Shown here: piece after piece, positions 52,213 through 56,627 of the stretch
How the letters are laid out: each line of letters opens with the position of its first letter
Numbering within the stretch: the first letter of the stretch is position 1
From: Acetobacter fabarum
GTDB lineage: Bacteria; Pseudomonadota; Alphaproteobacteria; Acetobacterales; Acetobacteraceae
DNA length: 64,000 bases
Assembly (NCBI RefSeq): GCF_011516925.1
Contig: NZ_WOTG01000002.1
Coordinates: 434,001 to 498,000 of the forward strand
Direction of reading: 5' to 3'
Notes under the pieces: generated by a model
The model's input: the letters and a program-made list of their open reading frames with translations, nothing else
Database searches by the model: none
Told to the model about the DNA's origin: nothing
Translations under genes and position numbers: made by a program

Positions 52213-52347
52213 AAGCAGTCAGACCCTGTTGGGCGGTATCATGCCGGGCTGCCACACAAGGGTACTTTTGTGGTGTGTGCTGCAAGCAGGAAGGAAGAGA
52301 GTATAGTGGCTCTTGAAGAAATGTCCGCCAGCGGGCAGAGAGAGAAC

Positions 52348-53043
52348 ATGAGTGACGTTCTCCAAGAATACCCCTCCAGCGGAGGGGAAAGCCCCGTACC
52401 CCCTCCCTCGCGTTCTGCGCTTGATGCGGAGGCCGTCAAACAGGCCTATCGGCGTTGGGCCAATGTCTATGATCTGGGATTCGGCGGTATTTCGCGTTTC
52501 GGTCGCCTCAAGGCGGTCAATACGATCAATGCCCTGCCCGGCAAGGATGTGCTGGAAGTGGGTGTGGGGACCGGGCTTGCGCTCCCGCATTACAACCGCA
52601 GCAAGGTCATTACCGGCATCGACCTTTCAACCGACATGCTGGCCAAAGCGCGCGAACGCGTCAAACGCGATAACCTGAGCAATGTGACGGCCCTGCTGGA
52701 AATGGATGCAGAGGACACCACGTTCGAAGACAACTCGTTTGATGCAGCCGTTGCCATGTTTGTTGCATCCGTTGTGCCGCACCCGCGCAAGCTGCTGTGC
52801 GAGCTCAAGCGTGTTGTCCGTCCGGGCGGGCATATCCTGTTCATCAACCATTTTCTGGCCCCCGGTGGTATCCGCGGCGCAGTGGAACACGCTATGGCGC
52901 GCGCCTCCCACTCGCTTGGCTGGCACCCCGATTTTGCCATGGAATCGCTTCTCCCGCAGGCAGACATCGCGCGGGCGACTATTCAGCCAGTGCGGCCTTT
53001 TGGCCTTTTCACGCTGGTTACTCTGGAAAATCTGCCGGATTAA
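52348..53043 (+). CDS. pmtA: Phosphatidylethanolamine N-methyltransferase, PmtA type
   Basis: The 231-residue soluble methyltransferase has the AdoMet motif VLEVGVGTGLALPHY and resembles Rhodobacter PmtA in YRRWANVYDLGFGGISRFGR and HVVRPGGHILFINHF-type sequence (VVRPGGHILFINHFLAPGG). It converts phosphatidylethanolamine towards phosphatidylcholine. The start is uncertain: ATG 52348 is chosen after an AGAGAG site, while ATG 52321 would add nine residues. A hairpin follows its stop. Confidence 0.85.
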   Translation: MSDVLQEYPSSGGESPVPPPSRSALDAEAVKQAYRRWANVYDLGFGGISRFGRLKAVNTINALPGKDVLEVGVGTGLALPHYNRSKVITGIDLSTDMLAKARERVKRDNLSNVTALLEMDAEDTTFEDNSFDAAVAMFVASVVPHPRKLLCELKRVVRPGGHILFINHFLAPGGIRGAVEHAMARASHSLGWHPDFAMESLLPQADIARATIQPVRPFGLFTLVTLENLPD

Positions 53044-53196: not shown

Positions 53197-54462
53197 ATGA
53201 TCTCCGCTCACAGCCTGTCTCACCAGTATTCGGCTCCGGTGGGTAAAACTGCCAGCCAACGGCAGGATGCCGCCGCTGGAACAGCGTATCTGCTGCTTGC
53301 TGCTTCTGCCGCTCTTGTTGGGGGCGGTGTTTCCGTTCTGGCAGGTATGGGCATGTTGCCTGCAACGGGGCTGTGGGGCAGGCTTGCACAGGCCCATCCG
53401 GCCCTGATGCTCCTGTATGTTGTTGTTCCCGCACTGGTCAGTGGTTTTGGCACGCTCTGGCTGCCTCGTGCCCTTGGGCGGGGGAGCATGCTGCTGGGGC
53501 GGCTTAATCTGGCAGCCGTTGGTGTGTTTGCCCTGGCTGCGGTGCTGACCTGCACTCTGCCCGATGCACGTATTGCCCATATTCTGTGGTCACTGGGCGC
53601 GCTTATGTCCGCCATGGTCCTGTTGAGCACTATTTTTGACAGCTGCGCAGATAGTCTGGAGCAGACGTCTTTCTCCCCCTTCGTGTGGGGGGAAATGCTG
53701 TCTGCTGCCGTGCTGTTGCTGAGTGTTCCGGTTTTTGCGGCTTCTACGCTGCGGACATGGCTGTGGCCTGCGACCAACCCTGTGATCGGCGCTGAGTATT
53801 TTGCAGCCCCCATCGGGTTGATTGTCCTGCTGGCCGGGTTCGGGATCGTGTTTGAAATGGCCGCCCGCATCGGGCAGGTTAAAACACGCCCTGTTGCCTA
53901 CATTATGGCGGCTACTGCGGCTTCGGGCGTTGTGGCATGGGCCAAAAGCAGTCTGGCGCATGGAGCCGATAGCCAGACGGCGCAAATGGTTGGCAACAGC
54001 CTGCTGGCGTTATGCTCCCTCTCCGCCGTGTGCCTTGCCGGTCTGTGGCTTGCGGGTACCTGGAAGGCACGGGTTTCATTGCGTACGCCGCTGCTGTGGG
54101 GCATGGGTTTTCTGGCTGTTGTGGCCGGTGGCTGGGTTGTCCAGCTTGTGCAGGGCACAGGCTTGCACCCGGCCTTGCAGCTTGGCGCGCTTTATGCCGT
54201 TTGCGGTGGTTTTTACCTCTGGCGGGGTGAGGCCTGTGGGTTCTGGTACCCACAAAAGCTGGCTCGCCTGCACTTTGTATTAACGGCGGCGGCAACGCTT
54301 TGCCTGTTTGTTTCTGGCATGCAGGTGCTGGGTTGTGCTCTGTTTGGCATGGCCGCACTGGTGTTTGTGCTGGCAGCAGTGATCAGCTTCCAGCGTGATA
54401 TTCCAATGGTTACGGGTCATGCAAATGTGGCAGCCAGCGCTGCCGGAGGGTCTGCCCTATGA
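53197..54462 (+). CDS. Degenerate cytochrome oxidase subunit I-like membrane protein
   Basis: The 421-residue protein has about 11-12 helices and aligns with heme-copper oxidase subunit I along its length. H67 (AQAHPALM) matches the low-spin heme ligand in GHGLIM, and GFGTLWLP matches GFGNWFVP. Before GFGI (214-217), AAPIGL replaces GHPEVY, so the Cu_B His is A204 and the cross-linked Tyr is L208. WAHH is W248-A-K-S251, losing two more Cu_B ligands. HFHY becomes GLHP: H324 keeps the low-spin ligand and the heme a3 His is lost. GGFYLW and LARLHF align downstream. It cannot reduce oxygen in the normal way. It sits where coxA lies before ctaB, overlapping it by four bases. Function unknown; possibly heme or electron handling. 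Confidence 0.8.
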   Translation: MISAHSLSHQYSAPVGKTASQRQDAAAGTAYLLLAASAALVGGGVSVLAGMGMLPATGLWGRLAQAHPALMLLYVVVPALVSGFGTLWLPRALGRGSMLLGRLNLAAVGVFALAAVLTCTLPDARIAHILWSLGALMSAMVLLSTIFDSCADSLEQTSFSPFVWGEMLSAAVLLLSVPVFAASTLRTWLWPATNPVIGAEYFAAPIGLIVLLAGFGIVFEMAARIGQVKTRPVAYIMAATAASGVVAWAKSSLAHGADSQTAQMVGNSLLALCSLSAVCLAGLWLAGTWKARVSLRTPLLWGMGFLAVVAGGWVVQLVQGTGLHPALQLGALYAVCGGFYLWRGEACGFWYPQKLARLHFVLTAAATLCLFVSGMQVLGCALFGMAALVFVLAAVISFQRDIPMVTGHANVAASAAGGSAL

Positions 54463-55424
54463 GCGAAGCCAGTCTTTCCCAGCCGCAGGCCAGACGGCCA
54501 CGTTTTAAAACGGAGCAGGTTGGTACGCAGGCGCGTGACTGGCTGGCTCTGCTCAAGCCCCGGGTTATTTCACTGGTCGTGTTTACGGGTGCTGCGGGGA
54601 TGTTCATGGCACCCGGGCACCTTGACCCGTTTGTGGGGCTGGTTACCATATTCTGCATCTGTCTGGCCTCGGGCGCTGCCGGGGCCATTAACATGTGGTA
54701 CGACCGGGATATTGACGCGGTCATGCAGCGGACCATTACACGGCCAGTACCTTCAGGGCGTATTCCCCAGAACGAGGCTCTGGCTTACGGGGTAGGCCTT
54801 TCCTGCCTGTCCGTCTGCCTTATGTGGATTGCAACCAACACACTGGCTGCCGCTATTCTGGCGTTTTCCATCTTCTTCTATTCCGTTATTTACACCATGT
54901 GGCTCAAGCGCTCCACGCCGCAGAACATTGTTATTGGTGGGGCAGCGGGTGCCTTCCCCCCCATGATCGGCTGGGCGGCTGCTACGGGCCACATGGCACT
55001 TATGCCGGTGGTCATGTTCGGTATTGTGTTCTTCTGGACACCGCCGCATTTCTGGTCTTTGGCGCTCTACGCCTGCAAGGATTACGGGCGTGCGGGTATT
55101 CCCATGCTGCCGGTTGTGCGTGGCATGCGTCATACACGGTGGCAGATATTCTCCTACACACTGGTGCTGCTCGCTGTTTCGCTTATCCCGTCCTTTGTGG
55201 GGCAGAGCGGGCTGATCTACACGGTGACTGCCGTGGTGCTGGGGCTTGGGTTTGTTGCCTGTGCTGTGCGTGTACTTCTGGAACCGCAAGACGAAAACGG
55301 CGTCAGCCAGAAGGGGGATAAGGCTGCGCGGATCTCGTTCCGGTTTTCTCTGGCTTATCTGTTCTTTCTGTTCTGTGGCCTTCTTGGTGACCACTTCTTT
55401 CAGATATGGATGCACTCAGCATGA
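54459..55424 (+). CDS. ctaB: Heme O synthase (protoheme IX farnesyltransferase)
   Basis: CtaB/CyoE (321 residues) adds a farnesyl tail to protoheme. The UbiA-fold signature is LLKPRVISLVVFTGAAGMF, and the Asp motif is NMWYDRDID (78-86) with TITRPVPSG after it. WLKRSTPQNIVIGGAAGAFPPMIGW and DYGRAGIPMLPVVRG complete the pattern. Heme O would serve a bo3-type quinol oxidase encoded elsewhere. The start overlaps the COX1-like gene (ATGA) and the stop overlaps a 45-residue gene (ATGA). Confidence 0.95.
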   Translation: MSEASLSQPQARRPRFKTEQVGTQARDWLALLKPRVISLVVFTGAAGMFMAPGHLDPFVGLVTIFCICLASGAAGAINMWYDRDIDAVMQRTITRPVPSGRIPQNEALAYGVGLSCLSVCLMWIATNTLAAAILAFSIFFYSVIYTMWLKRSTPQNIVIGGAAGAFPPMIGWAAATGHMALMPVVMFGIVFFWTPPHFWSLALYACKDYGRAGIPMLPVVRGMRHTRWQIFSYTLVLLAVSLIPSFVGQSGLIYTVTAVVLGLGFVACAVRVLLEPQDENGVSQKGDKAARISFRFSLAYLFFLFCGLLGDHFFQIWMHSA

Positions 55425-55673: not shown

Positions 55674-56627
55674 TTAGCGGGCCTGCTGAATAGCCGAAAG
55701 CAGCCAGCGCCCCCCGCGGGAAGGACGGACAAATGTCCAGACCTCGGTAATGGTTACGGGGGTGGTGGAACTGCCATCAATCACCTGACCGGTGGCGTTG
55801 GTTGTCAGGTCGATCAGGCTGTAACGCATGGCTACACTTGCGTAGTCCATGTTGTTCTCACGCCATGCTTCGGCCAGATCCCCCTGAAGGAAGCGCACAT
55901 CCGAGACAACGTTGCGGGCACCCTGACTGGCCAGAGTTGCCAGCTGCTCATTGAAGTAGGAGACCATTTCCGGTGTGGCCATCTGCTGCATGGCCGGAAT
56001 GTTCTGCTGGTTCCACGCACTCTGAATATCCATCAGCGTTTGCTGGAAAGACTGGTAATCCGCCGTGGTAATCTGCACGGGTGCCCCTCCTGCGGATGGC
56101 GCGGGGGAGGCAGGTGCTGCACCGGGCATACCGCGGGGGGAGGACATGCCAAACCCGTGAGTGCCCTGGCTGGAACGCCCGAACCGGCGGATCAGCCACA
56201 GGACGAGCATAACCACCAGCCCGATCTGGACCAGAAGCCCCAGAAAGCTGAAGAAGCCGTGCATCCCGCCCATAAAGCCATGGCCGCTCAACATACCAAA
56301 CAGCCCGGCCCCCAGAAAACCACCGGCCAGACCGGTCAGGAATGGGTGGCGGTTGGGGTAGCCCATGGGGCGGGCAAAGGGAGCACCCATTTGCGGTGCG
56401 CCATAGCCGGGGGTGGGCGCAGTGCGCGGCGTAATGGAGCGGTCCATGGGAGCAGTGCTGTACGGCGTTGTGCGCGTAACAGGGGGCGCGCTCCATGTGC
56501 GGCTACCACGGCTCCCCATGGACCCACCCTGACCGGGCCGTGCATCGGCCTGTATGGCCAAGGGTCCGGCCAGCAGGCTGGCAGCCAGCAATGCATGAAG
56601 GGTCGATCGCAGCAGACGTGATTTCAC
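55674..56627 (-). CDS. Tim44-like domain protein
   Basis: The 317-residue exported protein has a signal peptide (LLAASLLAGPLAIQADA), then a Gly/Pro/Arg-rich linker. One or two hydrophobic segments follow (GLAGGFLGAGLFGML and GLLVQIGLVVMLVLWLIRRFGR), then a C-terminal Tim44-like domain (about 175-317) ending EVWTFVRPSRGGRWLLSAIQQ. Bacterial Tim44-like proteins are related to the mitochondrial import motor subunit and have no certain function; association with phospholipid is suggested. pmbA lies 24 bp upstream in the same direction. Confidence 0.85.
   Translation of the reverse strand: MKSRLLRSTLHALLAASLLAGPLAIQADARPGQGGSMGSRGSRTWSAPPVTRTTPYSTAPMDRSITPRTAPTPGYGAPQMGAPFARPMGYPNRHPFLTGLAGGFLGAGLFGMLSGHGFMGGMHGFFSFLGLLVQIGLVVMLVLWLIRRFGRSSQGTHGFGMSSPRGMPGAAPASPAPSAGGAPVQITTADYQSFQQTLMDIQSAWNQQNIPAMQQMATPEMVSYFNEQLATLASQGARNVVSDVRFLQGDLAEAWRENNMDYASVAMRYSLIDLTTNATGQVIDGSSTTPVTITEVWTFVRPSRGGRWLLSAIQQAR

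Follow-up and report, generated by a model that had tools for sequence, protein, structure and literature searches.

A COX1-like gene next to ctaB in Acetobacter that keeps the two low-spin heme ligand histidines of oxidase subunit I

The COX1-like gene and its neighbours

The window, a stretch of 64,000 nucleotides from Acetobacter fabarum, carries on its forward strand a COX1-like gene (53197..54462) for a protein of 421 amino acids with 12 long predicted helices. The reading frame is open across all 421 codons. Judged by its sequence, the protein is a homologue of heme-copper oxidase subunit I (COX1). It matches the PF00115 COX1 family with an E value of 4.4e-13 (49.3 bits versus a cut-off of 34.8), and solved COX1 chains match it as well, the top one being 7jro (E 2.1e-17). 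Both results agree with the initial annotation, which had called the protein subunit I-like. The score with the CtaD equivalog model, 49.6 bits, is far below the cut-off of 670.75.

The next gene on the same strand (54459..55424) is ctaB/cyoE, encoding the heme O synthase (NF003349, 341 bits; TIGR01473, 327 bits with a cut-off of 210). Its ATG at 54459 overlaps the stop codon of the COX1-like gene by 4 bp (ATGA), and the position of a coxA gene just before ctaB, and coupled to it, is therefore as had been proposed. A class I methyltransferase of the PmtA/UbiE-like type (52270..53043, forward strand) lies upstream, separated from the COX1-like gene by a 153 bp gap. There are no further COX genes directly after ctaB because a convergent Tim44-domain gene (55674-56627) comes next. 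No gene for subunit II was found beside the COX1-like gene at this locus, where the 153-bp gap lies upstream and ctaB directly downstream. The gene order methyltransferase - COX1-like - CtaB is that of the family: a homologue of the methyltransferase is present in 43/43 COX1-like loci, and CtaB adjoins the COX1-like gene in 42 of the 43, the exception (L022) being at a contig edge. Two loci with a true COX1 (L048 and L049) likewise have the subunit I gene before ctaB, and at L048 the same methyltransferase is found further upstream.

A gene of this kind has been described before. A 'deranged COX1-like protein' of Acetobacter encoded beside ctaB is attributed to Matsutani 2014 in a passage of PMC10715153, where the protein is said to lack all metal-cofactor-binding residues and a structural role, the stabilisation of CtaB, is suggested. 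The initial annotation knew of no described function. The window gene and the published one agree in family, in description and in place, directly before ctaB, the agreement being one of these features and not of named strain sequences. Excerpts of PMC5158111 list ctaD as APT_01775 and ctaB as APT_01774, and those of PMC4007555 describe acetic acid bacteria without an aa3 oxidase. Passages of PMC4596401, PMC5112900 and PMC4013037 contain no word on the COX1-like protein. A literature search, mostly at the level of titles and abstract openings, returned no mention of conserved low-spin ligands in it and, at the same level, nothing on its function or essentiality apart from PMC5158111.

Cofactor sites in the protein and its family

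The equivalents of the cofactor sites were taken from alignments. The site labels H102, H284, E286, Y288, H333, H334, H419 and H421 follow the Rhodobacter numbering, and the codon positions of the residues listed were checked on the window DNA. H102 corresponds to H67 (53395..53397) and H421 to H324 (54166..54168), all codons being on the forward strand. These are the equivalents of the low-spin heme ligands of helix II and helix X, and both histidines are present. The oxygen-reducing site is erased. At A204-L208 (53806..53820), the remains of part of the GHPEVY motif, the CuB histidine H284, the glutamate E286 and the cross-linked tyrosine Y288 have become A204, I206 and L208, while the proline is kept. 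The CuB histidine pair H333 and H334 is replaced by K250 and S251 (53944..53949), which leaves none of the three CuB histidines, and the proximal ligand of the high-spin heme a3, H419, is G322 (54160..54162). The initial annotation had placed the two retained ligands and the lost ones at these same residues, and the alignments agree with it. A working oxidase is ruled out by the erased active site.

The fold was predicted with AF2 from an alignment of 39 rows, consisting of the window protein, its relative L051 and 37 true COX1 sequences. The model is of only fair confidence (pLDDT 75.7, pTM 0.80); twelve helices lie within residues 19-399, and a short one of 4 residues follows at the end. This fold, which is partly circular and not independent evidence because 37 of the 39 rows are true COX1, puts H67 within helix 2 and has H324 at the N-terminal end of helix 10. 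With the two COX1-like sequences alone the model was poor (pLDDT 45.7, pTM 0.41). A Foldseek search with the 39-row model gave 146 PDB matches, 56 of them at E <= 0.001 and the best at 5.3e-11. The best 50 of the 146 are cytochrome oxidases, their supercomplexes or bo3 (TMq 0.70-0.80). The predicted fold is consistent with that of COX1.

The family was collected by searching 249 Acetobacteraceae genomes with the window protein and 394 genomes with a profile of 30 COX1-like proteins. CtaB was searched for in 30 + 30 chosen genomes. A search of genome contigs with the COX1-like alignment was unproductive, the sequences being too diverged; the same kind of search with CtaB gave one usable COX1-like protein among the 80 loci listed (L051, Komagataeibacter xylinus). 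From the fetched loci 164 distinct COX1-type reading frames were gathered, and those that keep at least three of the four active-site histidines were classed as true oxidase subunits. There were 59 of these, including the CyoB of the window's own genome (L001), and 105 others. The true-COX1 set consists of the 53 long members of the 59, with CyoB left out. From the 105, five were removed: L056 and L060 are pieces of true COX1, L079 and L148 are fragments, and L022 is truncated at a contig edge, with the H67 equivalent present and the C-terminal part missing. The resulting 100 proteins are part of all the COX1-like matches from the 394-genome search. A fresh set of 20 more proteins, none identical to any of the 100, was fetched after the analysis.

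The 100 proteins are highly diverged, with a median pairwise identity of 26% and a minimum of 15%. At least 95% conservation is reached by only 11 of the 386 aligned columns, and invariance by only four: H67, W164 (53686..53688), W248 (53938..53940, adjoining the erased CuB pair) and H324. Both low-spin ligand equivalents are histidine in 100/100, a count that does not amount to 100 independent tests because the genomes were mostly chosen among the matches and the proteins are related. In the fresh set both histidines and both tryptophans are present in 20/20. Orthologues without H67 or H324, which would have spoken against the reading in the initial annotation, were found neither among the 100 nor among the 20. 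The two tryptophans may line the heme pocket, or they may occupy the room that the heme a3/CuB centre has left.

The other cofactor positions behave differently. The equivalents of H284 and Y288 and the K-path lysine are each kept in 0/100. H334 is histidine in 5/100 (L138-L141 and L143), H333 in 46/100 and the a3 ligand H419 in 2/100, and E286 is kept in 50/100. In the fresh set H284, Y288, H334 and H419 are kept in 0/20, H333 in 5/20 and E286 in 18/20. Ten columns are histidine in at least 98% of the 53 true COX1 sequences; of these only the H67 and H324 sites are kept in all 100 COX1-like proteins, and the remaining eight reach 46/100 at most. Two proteins (L024 and L039) have the histidine at the a3 position, in an HxH motif, with the rest of the oxygen site largely gone; it is probably secondary because their near relatives carry other residues there. 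Two arginines were also followed, R462 and R62 of the true COX1 L049. R462, the arginine of the loop before the last helix, which in COX1 clamps the heme propionates, is kept in 0/100, the column being gapped in 98. R62, the equivalent of bovine R38, the partner of the heme a formyl group, is kept in 8/100.

A second MAFFT mode gave the same 100/100 at both histidine sites. A profile built from true COX1 only aligned histidine in 86/86 rows at the first site and in 66/67 rows at the second (the remaining one being A), a control that is incomplete because 14 and 33 rows, respectively, are unaligned there. The columns flanking the two sites have histidine in 0-7 of the 100 rows. Chance or an alignment artefact as the source of the two histidines is ruled out by the two MAFFT modes and the true-COX1-only profile, and the flanking columns and the fresh set speak further against it.

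The published statement that the protein lacks all cofactor ligands is contradicted, at the level of aligned sequences, by every one of the 100 + 20 proteins. The COX1-like gene is a known one that has apparently been misread. It resembles COX1/CtaD (A family, PF00115) in sequence, predicted fold, twelve helices and both low-spin ligands. It differs from it in the lack of the CuB ligand set, the cross-linked tyrosine, the a3 ligand and the K-path lysine, in the deletion of the R462 loop in 98/100, and in having no subunit II gene alongside.

Descent of the family and its genomic companions

A FastTree tree of 154 sequences groups the COX1-like proteins in one clade with support 1.0, which is to be taken with care because the branches are long. 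Several proteins are basal in this clade (L036, L213, L031, L146, L023 and L032); L036, from genome G071, has 520 amino acids and may represent an early step in the conversion. The COX1-like subtree has a length of 45.5 substitutions per site. The number of Fitch changes is 0 at H67 and 0 at H324, with 22.6 for the mean column, and at the columns of the oxygen site it is 29 for H284, 20 for E286, 18 for Y288, 15 for H333, 29 for H334 and 24 for H419. These counts indicate that the oxygen site drifts like ordinary positions and the low-spin pair is frozen.

The gene is under purifying selection. Between the window gene and its closest relative (L184 of genome G400) dN/dS (NG86) is 0.06, with 0.03 for CtaB of the same pair. 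Eight less closely related members of the genus give 0.09-0.32 at dS values of 0.96-2.1, which are partly saturated, and CtaB gives 0.03-0.10 in the comparisons with the window. In 28 pairs without a shared sequence, whose tree paths may overlap, dN/dS is 0.06-0.22. Two matches flagged with an in-frame stop (G309 and G293) turned out to be intact reading frames of 428 and 421 codons. A pseudogene is ruled out by dN/dS and the intact frames; that the frame is not decaying had already been stated in the initial annotation, on the intact frame and its coupling.

In the CtaB tree the clade linked to the COX1-like gene has 101 tips, 100 of which have the gene. The sole tip without it (L203, genome G009) is at a contig break, the COX1-like piece of that genome being L022; at all the other CtaB loci of the clade the COX1-like reading frame is intact. 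The support of the clade node is 0.575 and that of the next nodes 0.953 and 0.904. The nearest sister, L149 of genome G001, has no COX1-like reading frame; its methyltransferase runs up to the beginning of ctaB, and the COX genes have apparently been cleanly deleted. The other next branch (L150, G031) starts at a contig edge. In the more distant L152 (G053) the methyltransferase is upstream of CtaB with no COX1 between. The methyltransferase travels with the heme O synthase even in these two lineages, L149 and L152. G001 has two full-length PF00115 oxidases elsewhere, and G053 also has full-length PF00115 oxidases elsewhere. CtaB can evidently manage without the COX1-like protein, since these two genomes have the one without the other. 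We infer an ancestral order methyltransferase - (ctaC) - ctaD - ctaB, from which some sisters would have cleanly deleted ctaD, while the acetous lineage would have retained and altered it. A contig titled MAG: Asaia bogorensis (CAMCDA010000103.1) carries a full-length true COX1 of 539 amino acids (L052); its CtaB is only 59% identical to the window CtaB, and the binning or the label of the contig may be wrong.

A CyoB-size PF00115 reading frame (662-711 amino acids, E <= 2.3e-138) is present in 38/38 COX1-like genomes tested, which cover 20 genus codes, and several of the 38 carry additional oxidases. Five genomes have neither CtaB nor the COX1-like gene. In two of them, G210, of the same genus as the window, and G070, no PF00115 match was found, and in G029, G116 and G066 the only such match is a divergent protein of 785-833 amino acids. 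SURF1, which serves true COX as heme chaperone, was found in 8/8 genomes picked for true COX1; it is absent from 38/38 COX1-like genomes and is also unmatched in the window's genome, which is weak evidence because an E. coli control was silent too despite its PF00115 oxidase.

The window's genome has one full-length oxidase of CyoB size (L001, 682 amino acids, contig C7; G000:C7:42797-44143). It is homologous to the COX1-like protein and has the same low-spin ligands, but it keeps all eight checked residues and is by its sequence a working oxidase subunit. Heme A synthase CtaA (L050) is encoded on the same contig, ~26 kb from the CyoB-size gene. Since the genome keeps CtaA, heme A may be present in its quinol oxidase, which would then be of the ba3 type. 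For the quinol oxidase of A. pasteurianus, the ba3 type is given as probable (PMC6915089).

Possible functions

The COX1-like gene probably keeps a heme-handling job, because the oxygen site is erased and the low-spin heme residues are unchanged. The best reading, to which we give about an even chance, is a membrane protein with one bis-His heme that acts with CtaB in the supply of heme O to the quinol oxidase. The initial annotation had proposed a mono-heme membrane protein or an assembly factor, a proposal that the sequence data support in part. Subunit I would have been left alone once the lineage of acetic acid bacteria had lost its aa3 cytochrome c oxidase. The stranded subunit would then have been stripped of the oxygen-reducing centre and the proton-path residues, and retained as a 12-helix membrane protein in which H67 and H324 hold a single heme. 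The protein, coupled to CtaB, would most likely work at the heme O step, where it might present heme B to CtaB or hold the new heme O, to be taken by the quinol oxidase (CyoB) or by heme A synthase. The homology, the loss of the oxygen site, the invariance of the two histidines in the proteins analysed, the purifying selection, the gene order and the co-occurrence with a Cyo-size oxidase are observed; the binding and type of heme, the CtaB partnership and the course of evolution we infer. Two findings count against this reading: the alignments show the propionate-arginine loop deleted in 98/100 proteins and the R38 equivalent in only 8/100, and the COX1-like gene is missing from the nearest sister lineage, in which CtaB and Cyo-size oxidases are present.

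Electron transfer in COX runs through the bis-His low-spin heme. With both of its ligands invariant here, the protein could instead be a b-type cytochrome that passes electrons through a single low-spin heme, for example between heme A synthase and a partner such as a quinol, a c-type cytochrome or a dehydrogenase. We regard such a redox role as rather unlikely. The heme a3/CuB electron acceptor is gone and the K-path lysine is kept in none of the 100 proteins; the 153-bp gap beside the gene fits no gene for subunit II; a single heme cannot span the membrane by itself; and the gene order points to heme O synthesis, not to a dehydrogenase.

The suggestion of PMC10715153, a structural partner that stabilises CtaB in the membrane and has no cofactor, agrees with the adjacency and the 4-bp overlap of the two genes and with their joint absence from five genomes. 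It leaves unexplained why exactly the two low-spin ligands never change in proteins that otherwise share a median identity of 26%, and the CtaB of the nearest sister lineage is without such a partner; on balance it appears unlikely. A different reason for keeping the two histidines, such as another metal, or a contact between helix 2 and helix 10 that serves packing or folding, would accommodate the deleted propionate-arginine loop and the equal invariance of W164 and W248. It has to face the fact that only 11 of 386 columns are conserved to at least 95% and that precisely these two bind the iron in the parent protein, and we consider it unlikely. A neutral relic heading for loss, which the destroyed oxygen site and the missing subunit II neighbour might suggest, is hardly credible given dN/dS of 0.06-0.22 in the 28 pairs, an intact frame at every CtaB locus of the clade but the one at the contig break, histidines invariant across 45.5 substitutions per site and the intact frames of the two stop-flagged genes.

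The reading as a one-heme partner of CtaB can be extended to the history of the group. A single conversion near the base of the acetic acid bacteria might have turned an oxidase core into a membrane heme chaperone for the heme O synthase, one that replaced SURF1 and fed the bo3/ba3 quinol oxidase; this is possible but doubtful. Any analogy to SURF1 would be one of job only, the holding of heme for a terminal oxidase, as SURF1 belongs to another family (PF02104). Background on SURF1 and on CtaA-CtaB complexes is given in sections of PMC5249081 and PMC9145763, which treat the delivery of heme from the synthases into subunit I as an open question. A family in which the low-spin ligands are all that subunit I has left of its cofactor chemistry, encoded next to ctaB, would offer a simple system for this question of heme insertion. 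If the reading is true, it would correct the printed view of a cofactor-free remnant, and the core of an oxidase would have been reused for another job.
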